Assembly: GCA_028277025.1 (NCBI GenBank)
Contig: JAPYVG010000011.1
Coordinates: forward strand, 1 to 48,668
DNA length: 48,668 nucleotides
Source: Sulfolobaceae archaeon
GTDB lineage: Archaea; Thermoproteota; Thermoprotei_A; Sulfolobales; Sulfolobaceae
Direction: 5' to 3'
The position numbers and the translations under genes were made by a program. The notes below the pieces were generated by a model. It did no database searches. It was not told where the DNA came from and saw only the letters and a list, made by a program, of their open reading frames with translations. Below, one piece after another: positions 40,254-48,601 of this stretch. Each line of letters opens with the position of its first letter. Within the stretch, counting starts at the first letter, position 1.

Positions 40254-41173
40254 ATGAGTGAAAGACCAGTCTCCACTATATTGGTTCCTATATATCGTGG
40301 ATCATGGATTCTTATGACCTAGGGGCAGTAGTTATAACTTCAACTTTACCAGAAAAGTTGTTCTACCCGACTTTAGGAACATTAGGTGCAGTATTACCAA
40401 TAGTTTTCACGGTATTATTTAGGCCTTTAGGTGGTTTTATTTTTGGATATATAGCTGATAAATATGGAAGGAAAAGAACATTAATATTTACAGTTTTAGG
40501 ATATTCATTGTCTATAGGAATAACTTCAATTTTACCTACTTATTATCAAATAGGAATTTTAGCACCGATTCTTCTATCATTACTTAGAATCTTACAAGGA
40601 ATATTTATAGGCGGAGACGTATCTTCAAGCTTTACTACTGCAATGGAAAGCGTTAGAAAGATGAGGGGACTATTTGGCGGGATAATGCAGTCTGGAACTT
40701 TAGTTGGGTTTGTTATAGTAGACCTCCTTTTCGCTTATTTTGCTAGCATACCTAGCCTTGTACTTAATAGTTGGAGATATATTTTCGCTATCGGTGTTCT
40801 ACCTGCAGGACTTGCAGTATTCATAAGATCAAGAATGACAGAACCTAAAATATACGTAGAGAGTAAGAAGGATAACCCAATTAAAGGCTTGAAACCAATA
40901 TGGCAGACCATATTAGTAATGATAGGATTCTGGATGATGATCTATGCAGGACCGCAATTCGCTCCAGTATTCTTTGGAGAATATCTTCACTTAACTCAAG
41001 CAGAAATTGGCAAGTATGCATTTTACATGAATTTAGCAGGAATACCCGCAATGATAATAGCAGGAGGAATTTCTGACTTTCTAGGAAGTCAGATGCATAT
41101 CTTGGGCATCATAGACAGCTTGCAATGTTGTAATCCTACTATAGTAATTTTTCTAAGATATCTATTTTATTAG
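40254..41173 (+). pseudogene. Broken MFS transporter gene (metabolite:proton symporter type)
   Basis: The promoter-proximal ATG at 40254 opens [10 protein letters not shown] and stops after 22 codons. The body of the protein is in another frame: [20 protein letters not shown] onward, with the MFS motif [15 protein letters not shown] and [17 protein letters not shown] one-base loss (or two-base gain) between about 40280 and 40300 would join the two. The body runs to [12 protein letters not shown] and then continues into unrelated residues with a stop at 41171-41173, about 289 residues instead of roughly 400-450. So it is damaged at the 5' end and truncated at the 3' end. A shortened protein from ATG 40304 would lack the N-terminus and the last helices. 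Confidence 0.72.
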
Positions 41174-41450: not shown

Positions 41451-41537
41451 GCCGCGGTAGCTCAGCTGGCAGAGCGCCGGGCTGTTAAAGGAAGTACAGA
41501 AACCCGGTGGTCGGAGGTTCGAGTCCTCCCCGCGGCG
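41451..41537 (+). tRNA. tRNA-Asn (anticodon GTT) with a 14-nt intron
   Basis: Acceptor stem GCCGCGG/CCGCGGC, D arm GCTCAGCTGGCAGAGC, anticodon stem CCGGG/CCCGG, T arm GGAGG-TTCGAGT-CCTCC, discriminator G. The anticodon loop CTGTTA is interrupted after position 37 by AAGGAAGTACAGAA (41488-41501). CTGT pairs with ACAG inside the intron and each side has a 3-nt bulge, the bulge-helix-bulge cut by archaeal splicing endonuclease. Mature length 73 nt; no encoded CCA. Anticodon at 41484-41486. Confidence 0.95.
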
Positions 41538-42395: not shown

Positions 42396-42689
42396 AGACT
42401 GTAACGCTTCTACGTAACTACTCGTTATTTTTAATCATTTCTAAATATCGTTTTGATTAAGTAATGTTTATATAGTATTACTGAAGTAGTTTTTATTAAT
42501 GATCCCCCTAACTGATGACGGGCTCTGCTCACGAGGTTTGGGGAGTGATAAAAGTGTGGATGGGAGGGTAGTGGTGTTTCCCTCGACCAGCCCCAATGAT
42601 TTAAGGGTGAATGTGTATGACCCCTTAAGAGGGGTGCCCGTGGTGGAATTAAAAGTAAGGAAAAGTTACGCCACGGGTAAACACCTTGT
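42396..42689 (+). repeat. Repeat R1, copy A (uninterrupted)
   Basis: About 294 bp without a convincing gene, repeated at 44002-44755. Shared blocks: AGACTGTAAC, TTCTAAATATCG, ATAGTATTAC, GATGGGAGGGTA, TGTTTCCCT, GTGTATGACC, GTGGNNGAATTAAAAG. It can form strong hairpins: TTAAGGG (42601-42607) with CCCTTAA (42622-42628), and CCCGTGG (42637-42643) with CCACGGG (42671-42677). A small non-autonomous mobile element or a structured RNA gene is likely. The 64-codon frame inside it is not conserved in copy B. Confidence 0.72.
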
Positions 42690-42693
42690 ATAG

Positions 42694-43931: not shown

Positions 43932-44030
43932 ATGGCTAGATATCAATTAATGTTAAGTAGGAAATTTGCACTAAAAGTTGCTAAAAGAAGGTGGAAAGAA
44001 AAGACTGTAACACATACACGTAACTATTAG
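43932..44030 (+). CDS. Possible 32-residue basic peptide
   Basis: ATG 43932 is preceded by GGTGGAGG (43918-43925), a good ribosome-binding site. The peptide starts MARYQLMLSRKFALKVAKRR and its last residues run into repeat R1 copy B. It could be a real small protein or the end of a gene cut off by the arrival of R1. No family recognised. Confidence 0.3.
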   Translation: MARYQLMLSRKFALKVAKRRWKEKTVTHTRNY

Positions 44031-44162
44031 TCATTTTAATTACTTCTAAATATCGTCCCGATTAGTTATGTCAAATAGTATTACAATAGTTTTATTGGTG
44101 ATCTCCCAGCTGATGATTACTCACAAGGGTAGATGGGAGGGTAATGTGTTTCCCTAAACTAT

Positions 44163-44412
44163 CCGTTTATCCCTACACTTTCATTTCAATCATTTTATGT
44201 TCATTCATGATCGAGTGTAGGGACTTAGCCCTCAACCACAGGTGGGTCATGGGACTCCTTCGAGCCCAACGGCACGGGGCTCACATCTCCGCAATCACTC
44301 CCACCCTTTTGGGCATAGCCCACATCGGCGTGAGAGATCATCCTTTATTAACAAAAATTCGTTATAAACAGATATAAAAAGATTTCTATAACACGAAAAA
44401 GGATACAGCCCA
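44163..44412 (+). repeat. Repeat R2, copy 2 (inverted relative to 5074-5299)
   Basis: Reverse complement of copy 1 with about 25 extra bases and scattered changes. The hairpin is conserved: ATCCCTACAC (44169-44178) with GTGTAGGGAC (44215-44224). The arm TATCCTTTTTCGTGT, read on the minus strand, matches the other end. The CAGCCC at its right end is also found at the corresponding point of R1 copy A, so the exact boundary is ambiguous. Confidence 0.68.
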
Positions 44413-44464
44413 TTGGGAATGTGTATGACCCCCTTAAGCCCGTGGCAGAATTAAAAGTTACGTC

Positions 44465-44738
44465 GTCGCCAACAGTTTTCGATAAACCGTGAAGTTTATA
44501 TACTTAGTATGTAAATATGAGTAAAGTCACACCAGATGGGTGGCTATATCACGACGAGGTGTGACGGTGAATAAGAGATGTGCGGGTTTCCCCATCAGAT
44601 GGTAACACTCTGATGGGTGGGGTTATCCCGCTAAAGGGGCGGAGGGGTATGAACGGGGCAATGCCCCGTGACTCTGTTGAAGCCCAACGGCTGAGGATTG
44701 GATAGAAATTCATGAAAATTCAATGAAGCCCAAACCCC
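44465..44738 (+). mobile_element. Non-autonomous IS607 derivative: promoter plus guide RNA only
   Basis: The left 42 bp (44470-44511, CAACAGTTTTCGATAAACCG onward) match the left end of the full IS607 element (45761-45802) with one mismatch. The right 163 bp (44576-44738) match its right end (47514-47686), both ending GAAGCCCAAACCCC. Between them only about 64 bp remain, so tnpA and nearly all of tnpB are gone. The middle carries an 8-bp inverted repeat GTCACACC (44526-44533) / GGTGTGAC (44558-44565) that I do not see in the full element. The TATA box TTTATATA (44495-44502) would start a transcript near 44526, exactly at this hairpin and through the right end. Confidence 0.85.
44526..44738 (+). 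ncRNA. Predicted TnpB guide (omega) RNA of the small element
   Basis: Stems: GCGGG (44582-44586) with CCCGC (44627-44631); CCATCAGA (44592-44599) with TCTGATGG (44609-44616); CGGGGCAATGCCCCG (44654-44668). In TnpB systems the omega RNA covers the 3' end of tnpB and the transposon right end, and the guide is the flanking DNA just beyond it; here that would start CAATTAAACA near 44740. There is no coding constraint in this copy, so kept structure argues for RNA function. Confidence 0.65.
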
Positions 44739-44833
44739 ACAATTAAACATTTCTCTCCTTAGCTGAGCTTCATCTTCTCAAAATTCTTGCTCATGGATTG
44801 TTTAAAAGATTCTGATATAATCAATTTTTGATT

Positions 44834-45755: not shown

Positions 45756-45785
45756 GTAGTCAACAGTTTTCGATAAACCGTGAAG

Positions 45786-45793
45786 TTTATATA
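45786..45793 (+). promoter_or_regulatory. TATA box in the IS607 left end
   Basis: TTTATATA, centred about 27 bases before ATG 45817 of tnpA, so a leaderless transcript. The same promoter is kept in the small element (44495-44502). Confidence 0.6.
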
Positions 45794-45816
45794 CTTTGTA
45801 TGTGAGTTTAACTACA

Positions 45817-46401
45817 ATGCTTAAACCTAAGGAAGTATGCCAAAAACTAGGAATATCATACCGCACACTACAGAGCTATGTTAAAAAAGGTTACATAAAA
45901 CCCGTGATACTACAGAGTGGAAAATGGAGGTTCAAAGAAGAGGACGTAGAAAAACTCATGGGGATTGTTAGAAAGAGGAAAGTAGTATTATACGCTAGAG
46001 TATCATCAAACAAACAGAAAGACGACTTGATAAACCAAGTTAAGTACCTAGAGGAAAACGTCAAAGACTACGACCAAGTGATAACTGACGTTGGATCTTC
46101 ATTAAACATGAAGAGAAAAGGGTTCCTCAAGCTATTGAGAATGATACTAAACAACGAAGTATCGAAAGTTGTCATAGCCTACCCAGACAGACTAGTTAGG
46201 TTCGGCTTTGAAATAATTGAGGAAATATGCAAAGCACACAACTGCGAGCTCGTGGTATTAAATAAGGAGGACAAAACCCCCGAGCAAGAGCTAATAGAAG
46301 ACTTAATCTCTATATTGGTATCATTCAGTGGAAAGTTGTATGAAATGAGGAGTCACAAATATGAGAAGGTGAAGAAATGTGTCGAAGAACTTAAGGCTTA
46401 A
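45817..46401 (+). CDS. tnpA: IS607-type serine recombinase (TnpA)
   Basis: 194 residues from ATG 45817; the TATA spacing excludes the upstream TTG 45796. The N-terminal MerR-like helix-turn-helix (1 to about 48; KPKEVCQKLGISYRTLQSYV, GKWRFKEEDVEKL) precedes the catalytic domain, the reverse of ordinary resolvases and typical of IS607. The nucleophile is Ser63 or Ser64 in VVLYARVSSNKQKDDL, and DRLVRFGFEIIEEICKAHNC carries the conserved Arg residues. It looks intact and overlaps tnpB by 23 bases. Confidence 0.93.
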   Translation: MLKPKEVCQKLGISYRTLQSYVKKGYIKPVILQSGKWRFKEEDVEKLMGIVRKRKVVLYARVSSNKQKDDLINQVKYLEENVKDYDQVITDVGSSLNMKRKGFLKLLRMILNNEVSKVVIAYPDRLVRFGFEIIEEICKAHNCELVVLNKEDKTPEQELIEDLISILVSFSGKLYEMRSHKYEKVKKCVEELKA

Positions 46402-47674
46402 TGACTTTCAACCACAAGAGGAATACGTCTACCTAACTTACTCCCTAAAGAACGATAAGAAGGAGGAGAGCAAGATATTACTAGAGAACTATAAACACCT
46501 ACTACAGAAGGCTTTAGACTGGTTATGGGAGAGGACTAAGATAGAGAGGAAGGAAGTGAAAGGTAAGAAAGCCACTAAGATCAAAATAACCCTGCCTAAA
46601 AAGAAGGAGGTTTACAAGACGTTGAGAAACGAGCTTGAGAAGATTAACAATCTAGCTTCCCATTATGTTGACAAGGCTATAAATGATGCTTACTCAATAT
46701 TAAAGGGGTGGAAGAGGAGGGCTGAAAAAGGGCAAGCGTCACTGAGGAAACCTAGATTGAAGAAGGTTTACGTTAGGGTAAAGTCGACACTTAGAAAGGT
46801 TGAGGGCGAAGAAGTTAGGATTACAGTAAGACCTTACGAGTATATTACCTTCTCTTGGTCTCGCACTTGGTTTTCAAGGAGGGTTGAAGGACTTGAGTTG
46901 GGTGAGCCCATAATTAAGGAGGATAAAGTTCACCTACCATTCCGTTATAAATTACCTTGGTTTACTCCCCTAGATTTCCTAGCAATTGATAGTAACTTGT
47001 ACACATTAGACGCTTACGATGGTGATAAGTTCGTCACTTTCTCAATCAAGGAGTTGTACAGTCTAAAATTCGGTATGGAGTTGAAGAGGAGTAAAATACA
47101 GTCTTTTGCTTCAAAGCACGGTAGGAAGGGGAAGGAGTTGATGGAGAAGTATTCTCATAGGGAGAGGAACCGCGTGCTGGATTACGTTCACAAGTTCGTG
47201 AACAAGTTGCTGGAAATGTATCCTGTGACAATGTTTGCTGTTGAGAAGTTGAATAAGCAGTCAATGTTCCAAGACGCTGATGACAAGCTGTCTAAGAGGA
47301 TTTCAAGGACTGTGTGGAGGACTATACACCGCGTGCTTAAATATAAGGCTCCCTTATACGGTTCTTTCGTTAAGGAGGTGAGCCCGCACCTCACTTCCAA
47401 GTCCTGCCCCAGATGTGGATGGGTTTCCCGAAAGGTCGGCAGGACTTTTCACTGCGAGAGGTGCGGGTTCACTCTAGATAGGCAACTAAACGCATCTCTA
47501 AATATATACCTCAAGATGTGCGGGTTTCCCCACCTCTTTTTTACTCCCACTGGGAGTAGGTGGGTTGGGGTTATCCCGCTAAAGGGGCGGAGGGGTATGA
47601 ACGGGGCAATGCCCCGTGACTCTGGTGAAGCCCAAGGGCTGAGAATTGAATACAAATTCATGAAAATTCAATGA
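46379..47674 (+). CDS. tnpB: RNA-guided nuclease TnpB
   Basis: 431 residues, GTG start overlapping tnpA. RuvC-like nuclease with all three acidic residues: Asp204 ([14 protein letters not shown]), Glu289 ([13 protein letters not shown]), Asp367 ([14 protein letters not shown]). A zinc ribbon lies between the last two (CPRCG, Cys343/346; CERCG, Cys359/362). TnpB with its omega RNA cuts DNA matching the guide next to a transposon-associated motif and so favours retention of the element. It is not needed for transposition. The last roughly 55 codons (from MCGFPHLF) overlap the predicted omega RNA. Full length and probably active. Confidence 0.93.
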
Positions 47675-47686
47675 AGCCCAAACCCC
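47514..47686 (+). ncRNA. Predicted TnpB guide (omega) RNA scaffold of the full element
   Basis: Overlaps the end of tnpB and the right end. Stems: GCGGG (47520-47524) with CCCGC (47575-47579); CCCACCT (47529-47535) with AGGTGGG (47558-47564) enclosing ACTCCC/GGGAGT (47543-47548 / 47552-47557); CGGGGCAATGCCCCG (47602-47616). The guide would be the flanking doxD sequence starting near 47687 (GCTAAATTAGACC). Confidence 0.62.
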
Positions 47687-48110
47687 AGCTAAATTAGACC
47701 CTAATTTAGCATCCTTCGTAGGAGGAAAACTGGTTAACTTCTTACCTCATGCCGGTCCTTTTAAGCCCTTCCTTTTAATGACGTTAGAGAACCGCTCCCT
47801 TGACGTTACTTTCCTGACGGTCTTCAGTTATGTAGAGATAATTGTAGGTATATTGATAGTTGTTGGTTTATTAACTAGATTAGCAGCTTTAGGAGCTTTA
47901 GCCATGTCTGTTGGTTTTGCCCCAGCATACTGGTTGGGATCTACATGCGAAGATGAGTGGCAGATAGGTTCTTTACTGACTGCCGGATCGGTTGTGTTAA
48001 TGTTAACGGCTTCGGGTAGAGTTTGGGGATTGGACTACTTCCTCTATAAGAAATTTGGTGATAGACCTTTAGCTAATGTGCCAATACTCAAATGGATTAA
48101 ATTATGGTGA
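47687..48110 (+). pseudogene. doxD: doxD, 3' part (split by IS607)
   Basis: Codons 40 (last base) to the TGA at 48108-48110. It reads [31 protein letters not shown], then membrane helices with [20 protein letters not shown] and [20 protein letters not shown]. Joined to 45637-45755 it gives a continuous 180-residue DoxD, the normal size. A start inside (for example TTG or ATG near 47778) could give a 110-residue product without the first helix, but that is unlikely to be active. Confidence 0.9.
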
Positions 48111-48601
48111 TCAGCTTGGAGAAGGTTTTTATAATAGGTTTAGTTTTCAGTATCTTAGTTGCTGGTTGGATTCTAGCGACTGGACAGTGGGCTTATGGTA
48201 ATGTATTGGGGCCATTATTCAATAATTCAAAGCTTCCTAAGTTAAACATTACTTACATTAACGCATATAATACTCCGCAAGGCTTGTGCCTTATAATGAA
48301 TATTACTGACATTGATGGTCCAGATGCTTATCCTGCATCAGCCCCTCTAATGGAAATATATAATTCAACCTGGCATATATTCCTTAACTCTTCAGAAATC
48401 TCCAACGACACTGTAAAAATAATTCAAGCACCGTGGAATGCTAATAAGAAAGATAAGGTAAACTGGTACTCGGGTTTTGTTATAATTTTAGGTAGTGAGG
48501 GTCAGTTCCACTTACTAATTAAGGGACTTCACTTATCTCCGGGCCCTAGACCCCAAATTCATCACCCCGAAAATAATTCAAGGGAGTTAAAAAGTGAATA
48601 A
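48104..48601 (+). CDS. doxA: Thiosulfate:quinone oxidoreductase small subunit DoxA
   Basis: 165 residues. One N-terminal membrane helix (about 7-27, [19 protein letters not shown]) and an outer beta domain with sequons (NITY, NITD, NSTW, NSSE). It overlaps doxD by 7 bases, the usual doxDA arrangement. DoxA pairs with DoxD in the membrane enzyme that moves electrons from thiosulfate to quinone. The gene is intact, but its partner is interrupted upstream, so transcription and coupled translation may be affected. Confidence 0.9.

Follow-up and report, generated by a model that had tools for sequence, protein, structure and literature searches.

Protein-less IS607 derivatives of Sulfolobaceae with conserved RNA pairing as probable guide RNA donors for TnpB

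Introduction

What can keep a fragment of an insertion sequence in a genome and allow it to spread once both of its protein genes are gone? The question is raised by a stretch of DNA from a Sulfolobaceae archaeon (contig JAPYVG010000011.1, 48,668 nucleotides, hereafter the window), in which a 274-bp element lies close to a full IS607 element that encodes the serine recombinase TnpA and the RNA-guided nuclease TnpB. TnpB has been described, in a model from recent work, as recording the insertion site of its element and cutting sites that do not carry the element (PMC11870625). An earlier note on this DNA had proposed that the 274-bp element supplies its own guide RNA to a TnpB encoded elsewhere or, alternatively, that it is just a deletion derivative moved by TnpA. 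We have therefore compared the element with its relatives in Sulfolobaceae genomes, with particular attention to insertion sites, RNA pairing, promoter position and partner proteins. The reading at which we arrive, and to which we assign a probability of about 0.7, is that the element is a protein-less IS607 'ghost', a parasite that would use TnpA for movement and TnpB for guided cutting of the site that it has vacated.

Results

The 274-bp element and its surroundings

The features under discussion are compiled in Table 1. The 274 bases have their ends in common with an IS607 element encoding TnpA, namely 60 nt on the left (87% identity to the neighbouring full element) and 125 nt on the right (95% identity). 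Reading frames for tnpA or tnpB are absent, and tblastn retrieved nothing more than short fragments of the tnpB tail. Loss of both proteins and retention of an IS607 left end with its TATA box, as stated in the earlier note, are thus confirmed. The same note took the whole right end to be preserved, which is imprecise: the stretch between the first hairpin of the predicted RNA, P1, and the next one is absent, and 213 nt separate the hairpin start from the right end compared to 286 nt in the full element. A second copy of the core dinucleotide, CC, occupies positions 44737-44738, and the coordinates fit an IS607-type core. When inverted-repeat pairs of at least 20 nt were searched for, none was found to link the two ends; IS607 elements are said to be without terminal inverted repeats and target duplication (PMC6188088). 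Rfam at gathering threshold returned three matches in the window and none over the 274-bp element.

Table 1. Positions of the protein-less elements, the predicted RNA and the adjacent full IS607 element in the window
Feature	Position	Strand	Basis
Protein-less element from a second IS607 family, inside a copy of another short repeat	44163-44412	-	matching ends
Left core dinucleotide TC (CC in most other copies)	44463-44464	+	sequence
274-bp element, protein-less IS607 derivative, including one core dinucleotide copy	44465-44738	+	bounds set by comparison with copy L034 and its empty site
tnpA promoter TATA box, retained by the 274-bp element	44495-44503	+	sequence
P1, 5' hairpin, presumed RNA 5' end; arms 44526-44533/44558-44565	44526-44565	+	fold, alignment
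P2, stem-loop; sequence unlike full element and sister copy L033, still pairs	44590-44617	+	
P3, small stem CCGC/GCGG	44628-44642	+	
P4, stem-loop ACGGGGC/GCCCCGT; short or absent in several other copies	44653-44669	+	
P5, small stem AGCC/GGCT	44681-44692	+	
P6, stem GGATT/AATTC; other copies GGATT/AATCC, GGGTT/GACCC	44695-44721	+	
Flank, putative guide	44739-44758	+	adjoins right end
Full IS607 element, inserted in doxD	45756-47686	+	
tnpA, IS607 serine recombinase	45817-46401	+	NF033518, 217 bits; Resolvase
tnpB, RNA-guided nuclease	46379-47674	+	NF040570, 120.7 bits
P1-equivalent hairpin inside tnpB zinc-finger codons; arms 47401-47408/47438-47445	47401-47445	+	
Presumed omega RNA of the full element, 3' part; overlaps tnpB end	47515-47686	+	

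The RuvC-II and RuvC-III parts of the TnpB encoded in the window align with solved TnpB structures, and the residues in the aligned parts are kept. The full element splits doxD of a thiosulfate:quinone oxidoreductase; the second part of doxD lies at 47778-48110 and doxA at 48104-48601. Further upstream, the window carries an 87-nt match to a tRNA gene, long enough for an intron (41451-41537), and a gene for an MFS-type transporter (40304-41173) that is probably truncated, since its profile match stops after about 300 of 400 positions.

A mobile family in Sulfolobaceae

Matches to the 274-bp element are present in at least 22 of 31 genomes of the family, and Metallosphaera yellowstonensis, searched with the complete element, gave at least 44, of which 8 among those listed cover most of it. 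The exact right-end motif was encountered in the genome contigs searched only in M. yellowstonensis MK1, at two places. For a closer comparison, a right-end profile was applied to 100 fetched loci plus the window and yielded 105 right ends, a number that like all copy numbers of right ends is a lower bound. A script classified 33 of them as protein-less (left end less than 400 nt away) and 44 as located beside tnpB; from the 28 left over, three (L050, L066 and L088) were added to the protein-less group by eye and the remainder stayed unclassified. Removal of one duplicate (L084) and five derivatives (L024, L025, L026, L057 and L078) from the resulting 36 left at least 30 core copies of 259-305 bp at differing sites, one in the window and 29 in ten Sulfolobaceae genomes (G001, eight; G008, five; G005, G011 and G021, three each; G013 and G015, two each; G014, G016 and G030, one each). 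The flanks of the core copies vary from copy to copy, and among the copies compared, none was seen that keeps both its place and its guide from species to species. A genome search of the kind suggested in the earlier note therefore returned what its proposal had anticipated, protein-less copies at other sites with other flanks, and not a single decayed copy. One protein-less copy, L068 in G013, is interrupted by other sequence of about 1.3 kb.

Several observations indicate that the element is mobile as judged from its distribution. Near-identical elements reside at different places of one genome (L036/L056 and L005/L012), and the locus of L034 in G013 has an empty counterpart in G001 that is 98% identical. 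The joined flanks of L034 correspond to this empty site in 81 of 81 bases over the junction (AAGCC^TAGC), with an IS607-like CC core; L034, the sole copy to do so, thus documents that the element enters at a core dinucleotide and leaves no longer target duplication. G029 and G031 have an empty site for L033 that is 85-86% identical, but its junction is too diverged for the core to be read. Among 27 left flanks, G is the second-last base in 24 and C the last in 25, and the full copies printed were similar. The L034 empty site and the GC of the flanks are in keeping with a core dinucleotide of the IS607 type and with action of TnpA in trans.

Ends and target core in common with full elements are also what would be expected of a passive miniature element, which TnpA moves by the retained ends, whose RNA is functionless and whose right end is long for DNA reasons only. 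Deletion derivatives without P1 (L024, L025 and L026, all in G001) would agree with this alternative as well. They have one tnpA remnant in common, however, and had no copies among those examined, whereas P1 is present in 30 of 30 core copies, a set defined by its spacing, and additionally in the derivatives L057 and L078.

Records outside the cellular genomes contributed little: the exact right-end pattern was found in none of the viral contigs, and one plasmid and seven phage records were retrieved, none of which covers 80% of the 274-bp element. Sulfolobus monocaudavirus SMV1 (L136, about positions 577-686) bears a truncated right end of the family, with no left end in the 501 bases read. 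The SSV10 and ATSV records contain two-gene copies sharing the family right end.

A predicted RNA whose pairing outlasts its sequence

The predicted RNA (44523-44738) folds with -78.5 kcal/mol, and of 200 dinucleotide shuffles all but one are less stable (z = -3.27). Its conserved 3' scaffold ends at the right end of the element, as is characteristic of omega RNAs, so that the adjoining flank would serve as the guide; a second match of this flank within the window was not found.

Pairing was assessed on a structure-blind alignment of 28 copies (A2), from which the near-copies L056 and L012 were left out. RNAalifold predicted 27 pairs, 14 of them changed on both sides in at least one copy. When pairs were counted with P1 drawn to 8 pairs, again giving 27 pairs and a total of 735 cells, 90.7% of the cells were paired (shuffled mean 85.2%), and double changes affected 13 pairs and 54 cells, compared to shuffled means of 6.6 and 23.3; these statistics rest on a structure largely derived from the same alignment. 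Sliding by 1-3 columns left at most 49.7% of the cells paired and at most 18 cells double-changed. In P1 alone, 82.9% of 216 cells are paired and 41 of the 216 are double-changed, a value reached in none of 500 shuffles (mean 20.2) and not exceeding 17 upon sliding. Two weaker measures for P1 were matched more often, the number of pairs with double change by 80 and that of further types by 31 of 500 shuffles. All 27 pairs are formed in the window copy. Other copies are worn, down to 19 pairs; P1 pairing is broken in several of those aligned (3 of 8 pairs in L003, L074 and L067, for example), and P4 is gone from some.

Depending on the clade, the arms of P1 read GTCACACC/GGTGTGAC, TTGCTACC/GGTAGCAA or TTGTCACC/GGTGACAG. 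The first two, GTCACACC/GGTGTGAC and TTGCTACC/GGTAGCAA, are the main ones and occur in none of 42 tnpB-bearing copies with the P1 region printed, from which it follows that these changes arose without a protein to encode. In P2, the arms are AUCAGA/UCUGAU in the window and AACGGA/UCCGUU in the sister copy L033. Together, these comparisons argue strongly that the secondary structure of the RNA in protein-less copies is maintained by compensatory change. Such changes in P1, P2 and P6 are not expected for DNA-binding sites and speak against a passive element.

An 8-bp hairpin at the start of the predicted transcript had been noted before, and it is indeed there. The accompanying remark that it is not seen in the full element could not be upheld, for a counterpart exists within the zinc-finger codons of tnpB, where GTCCTGCC pairs with GGCAGGAC in a sequence that differs from P1 of the element. 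A loop sequence, CCAGATG..CCCGAAAGG, connects P1 with the hairpin of the full element and is clearest in other copies, e.g., L034 and L064. As judged from these alignments, P1 of the protein-less copies derives from a hairpin hidden in the codons of the TnpB zinc finger, and a newly arisen hairpin is ruled out by the counterpart. The P1 equivalent is absent from the minimum-energy fold obtained for the full stretch, and the hairpin is thus a possible, not a predicted, structure in the full element.

P1 and P2 of the 274-bp element both differ in sequence from the full element; the copy is therefore no recent simple deletion derivative of its neighbour, an origin that we discarded.

Promoter position and number of origins

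From the TATA box it is 22 nt to P1 in the 274-bp element and 22 nt to the ATG of tnpA in the full element. The same placement is seen across copies. In full elements, the distance from the left end to the start of tnpA is 61-62 nt (12 usable left ends out of 13 rows of the full type; L018 was dropped as its left end runs off the locus, and L024 is itself a derivative), and in the core copies P1 starts at a median offset of 65 nt, with 28 of 30 copies within 59-71 and the window copy at 62, the arms having been picked by eye from alignments. P1 thus sits where tnpA starts in full elements, and the tnpA promoter should accordingly start the RNA at P1. Leaderless transcripts are common in these archaea, and if that of tnpA is one of them, the RNA would begin at P1. 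The TnpA of IS1535, a related element, is reported to depend on some 20-60 bp at the left end (PMC6188088), and a limit of left-hand deletions near offset 62 could therefore reflect DNA binding alone.

In L064 (G015), 60 of the 62 left-end bases match the local full element; the left end then leads straight into P1, which is in turn identical to P1 of the full element of the same genome. A tree was calculated for 77 right ends, taken from the 30 core copies, the five other derivatives and 42 tnpB-bearing copies. The protein-less label changes nine times on this tree, with at least four changes forced by starred branches, and a single clade for the 30 core copies was rejected (AU test, p = 3.1e-5), also without five long branches. 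One deletion event as the origin of all protein-less copies is rejected by the same test, with the caveat that recombination between copies could mimic several origins; the tree calls either for more than one origin or for recombination involving local full copies.

A second protein-less family in the window

The window holds two protein-less elements side by side that belong to two different IS607 families. Full copies of the second family, with an IS607 TnpA and a TnpB of 408-412 aa, are present in G013, G029 and G015, and its element has matches in 19 of 31 genomes. A hand-drawn 5' hairpin of ten pairs, picked by eye from alignments, is paired in 95.6% of 203 cells in 21 copies (20 fetched and that of the window), and six pairs show double change (shuffled mean 1.7). 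Measured from the left end in 20 copies, the hairpin begins at about 73-76 nt in 19 of them, and tnpA at about 63.

The short repeat into which the second-family element is inserted stems from an IS110-family transposon (NF033542). It is found at 42396-42690 and again at 44002-44162 together with 44413-44463, and the 274-bp element is located at the end of this second copy. The repeat has matches in 17 of 31 genomes, with at least 24 copies at 90% identity or more in G001, and might keep a guide RNA of its own (a bridge or seek RNA).

Partner proteins and competing explanations

Of the ten genomes with core copies, six encode an intact TnpB of the family (G008, G011, G013, G015, G021 and G030), and seven an intact TnpA (the same six and G001). 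No intact matching TnpB was found in the assemblies of the other four, G001, G005, G014 and G016. If the RNA acts as a guide, copies without TnpB should decay. The integrity of the pairs did not differ between copies with and without an intact TnpB in the genome (16 versus 12 copies, p = 0.42), nor did folding energy per base (16 versus 12 copies, p = 0.15), and the equal integrity counts as evidence against current use of the RNA in genomes without TnpB or, at the least, provides none in favour of it. Copies in such genomes are also in line with the passive element introduced above, which in view of the compensatory changes we nevertheless consider unlikely. The proposal of a guide RNA for a TnpB encoded elsewhere consequently stands in part: it has gained from the additional family members with different flanks, from compensatory pairing and from the coincidence of P1 with the tnpA start, and it is weakened by the four genomes just named. 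The other option, a mere deletion derivative, is too weak a description for a family that has spread and whose RNA evolves under a pairing constraint.

The evidence for an RNA is equally compatible with a decoy, i.e., an omega RNA that would sequester TnpB and reduce its cutting or the control that it exerts over full copies. Some genomes contain more copies than intact tnpB genes, as in G008 with five core copies and one intact tnpB, which would suit this possibility; the exact right end beside the flank, needless for a decoy, is kept in most copies, and we regard it as very unlikely. A takeover of the RNA for control of host genes, with the flank guiding to a host target, would have a parallel in TldRs, guide-dependent regulators derived from TnpB (PMC13418256). 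Against it stand the variation of flanks between copies, the lack of a second match of the window flank in the window and the residues kept in the aligned RuvC-II and RuvC-III parts of the TnpB in the window; it appears scarcely credible to us.

Discussion

The explanation that we favour, a protein-less parasite of both TnpA and TnpB, can be laid out as follows. TnpA from full copies would act on the retained ends and move the element. The old tnpA promoter would drive transcription of an RNA that begins at P1, in place of the tnpA start codon, and passes through the scaffold into the flank, giving rise to an omega RNA in which the DNA adjoining each individual copy provides the guide. TnpB made from full copies would load this RNA and cut sites free of the element, be it the vacated donor or an empty allele, and repair from the occupied copy would keep or spread the protein-less element.

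With regard to the wider picture, we consider the chances evenly balanced that RNA-guided transposons of Sulfolobaceae are shadowed repeatedly, in more than one family, by elements consisting of a promoter and a guide RNA that use their transposase and their guided nuclease. If this is true, a TnpB serves its own element and, in addition, a set of protein-less parasites, each of which adds a guide. If cutting of vacated sites favours elements, an element made of RNA alone should profit, which makes the purpose of TnpB testable. Natural compact guide RNAs separate from coding sequence would also become available, along with a set of compensatory scaffold mutants.

In the literature searched, which left out most subscription papers, no earlier report of such protein-less IS607 guide-RNA elements was found. 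In bacteria, the protein-less relatives of TnpB transposons include minimal IStrons and palindrome-associated elements. Full IS607 elements of Sulfolobus such as ISC1926 are described with the same ends, a dinucleotide core, the serine recombinase TnpA and TnpB (PMC6188088), and the 274-bp element differs from them in the lack of protein genes and in a shortened RNA region. It resembles the Sulfolobus MITEs SMN1 (320 bp, moved by ISC1733) and SM3A in being short, protein-less and moved in trans (PMC3718332); the available part of that account does not mention a guide RNA, whereas one is predicted here. SisTnpB7, used in Sulfolobus with a guide RNA from a second plasmid, exemplifies a TnpB that works with an RNA produced at another place in the cell, as we propose, and guide RNA made elsewhere is thus reported to work with an IS605-type Sulfolobus TnpB (PMC11043419). 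That case was engineered and of the IS605 type, whereas a natural arrangement is proposed here.

The nearest precedent found is provided by the Fanzor 'ghost' loci Spu-1 of Spizellomyces punctatus. According to the sections of the report at hand, these likewise consist of transposon ends and an omega RNA region without a nuclease gene and are present in many copies with a sequence-changed RNA stem, and their omega RNAs are reported to be functional when the nuclease is supplied separately (PMC10432273). They differ in residing in a eukaryote, in their relation to Fanzor instead of TnpB, in their size of about 550 nt and in that, in the same sections, no transposase was found (PMC10432273). The elements described here, unlike Spu-1, are archaeal IS607 derivatives with a TnpA, have the tnpA promoter at the RNA start and go back to several origins. 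Should our reading be true, they would be a prokaryotic counterpart to the Fanzor ghost loci.
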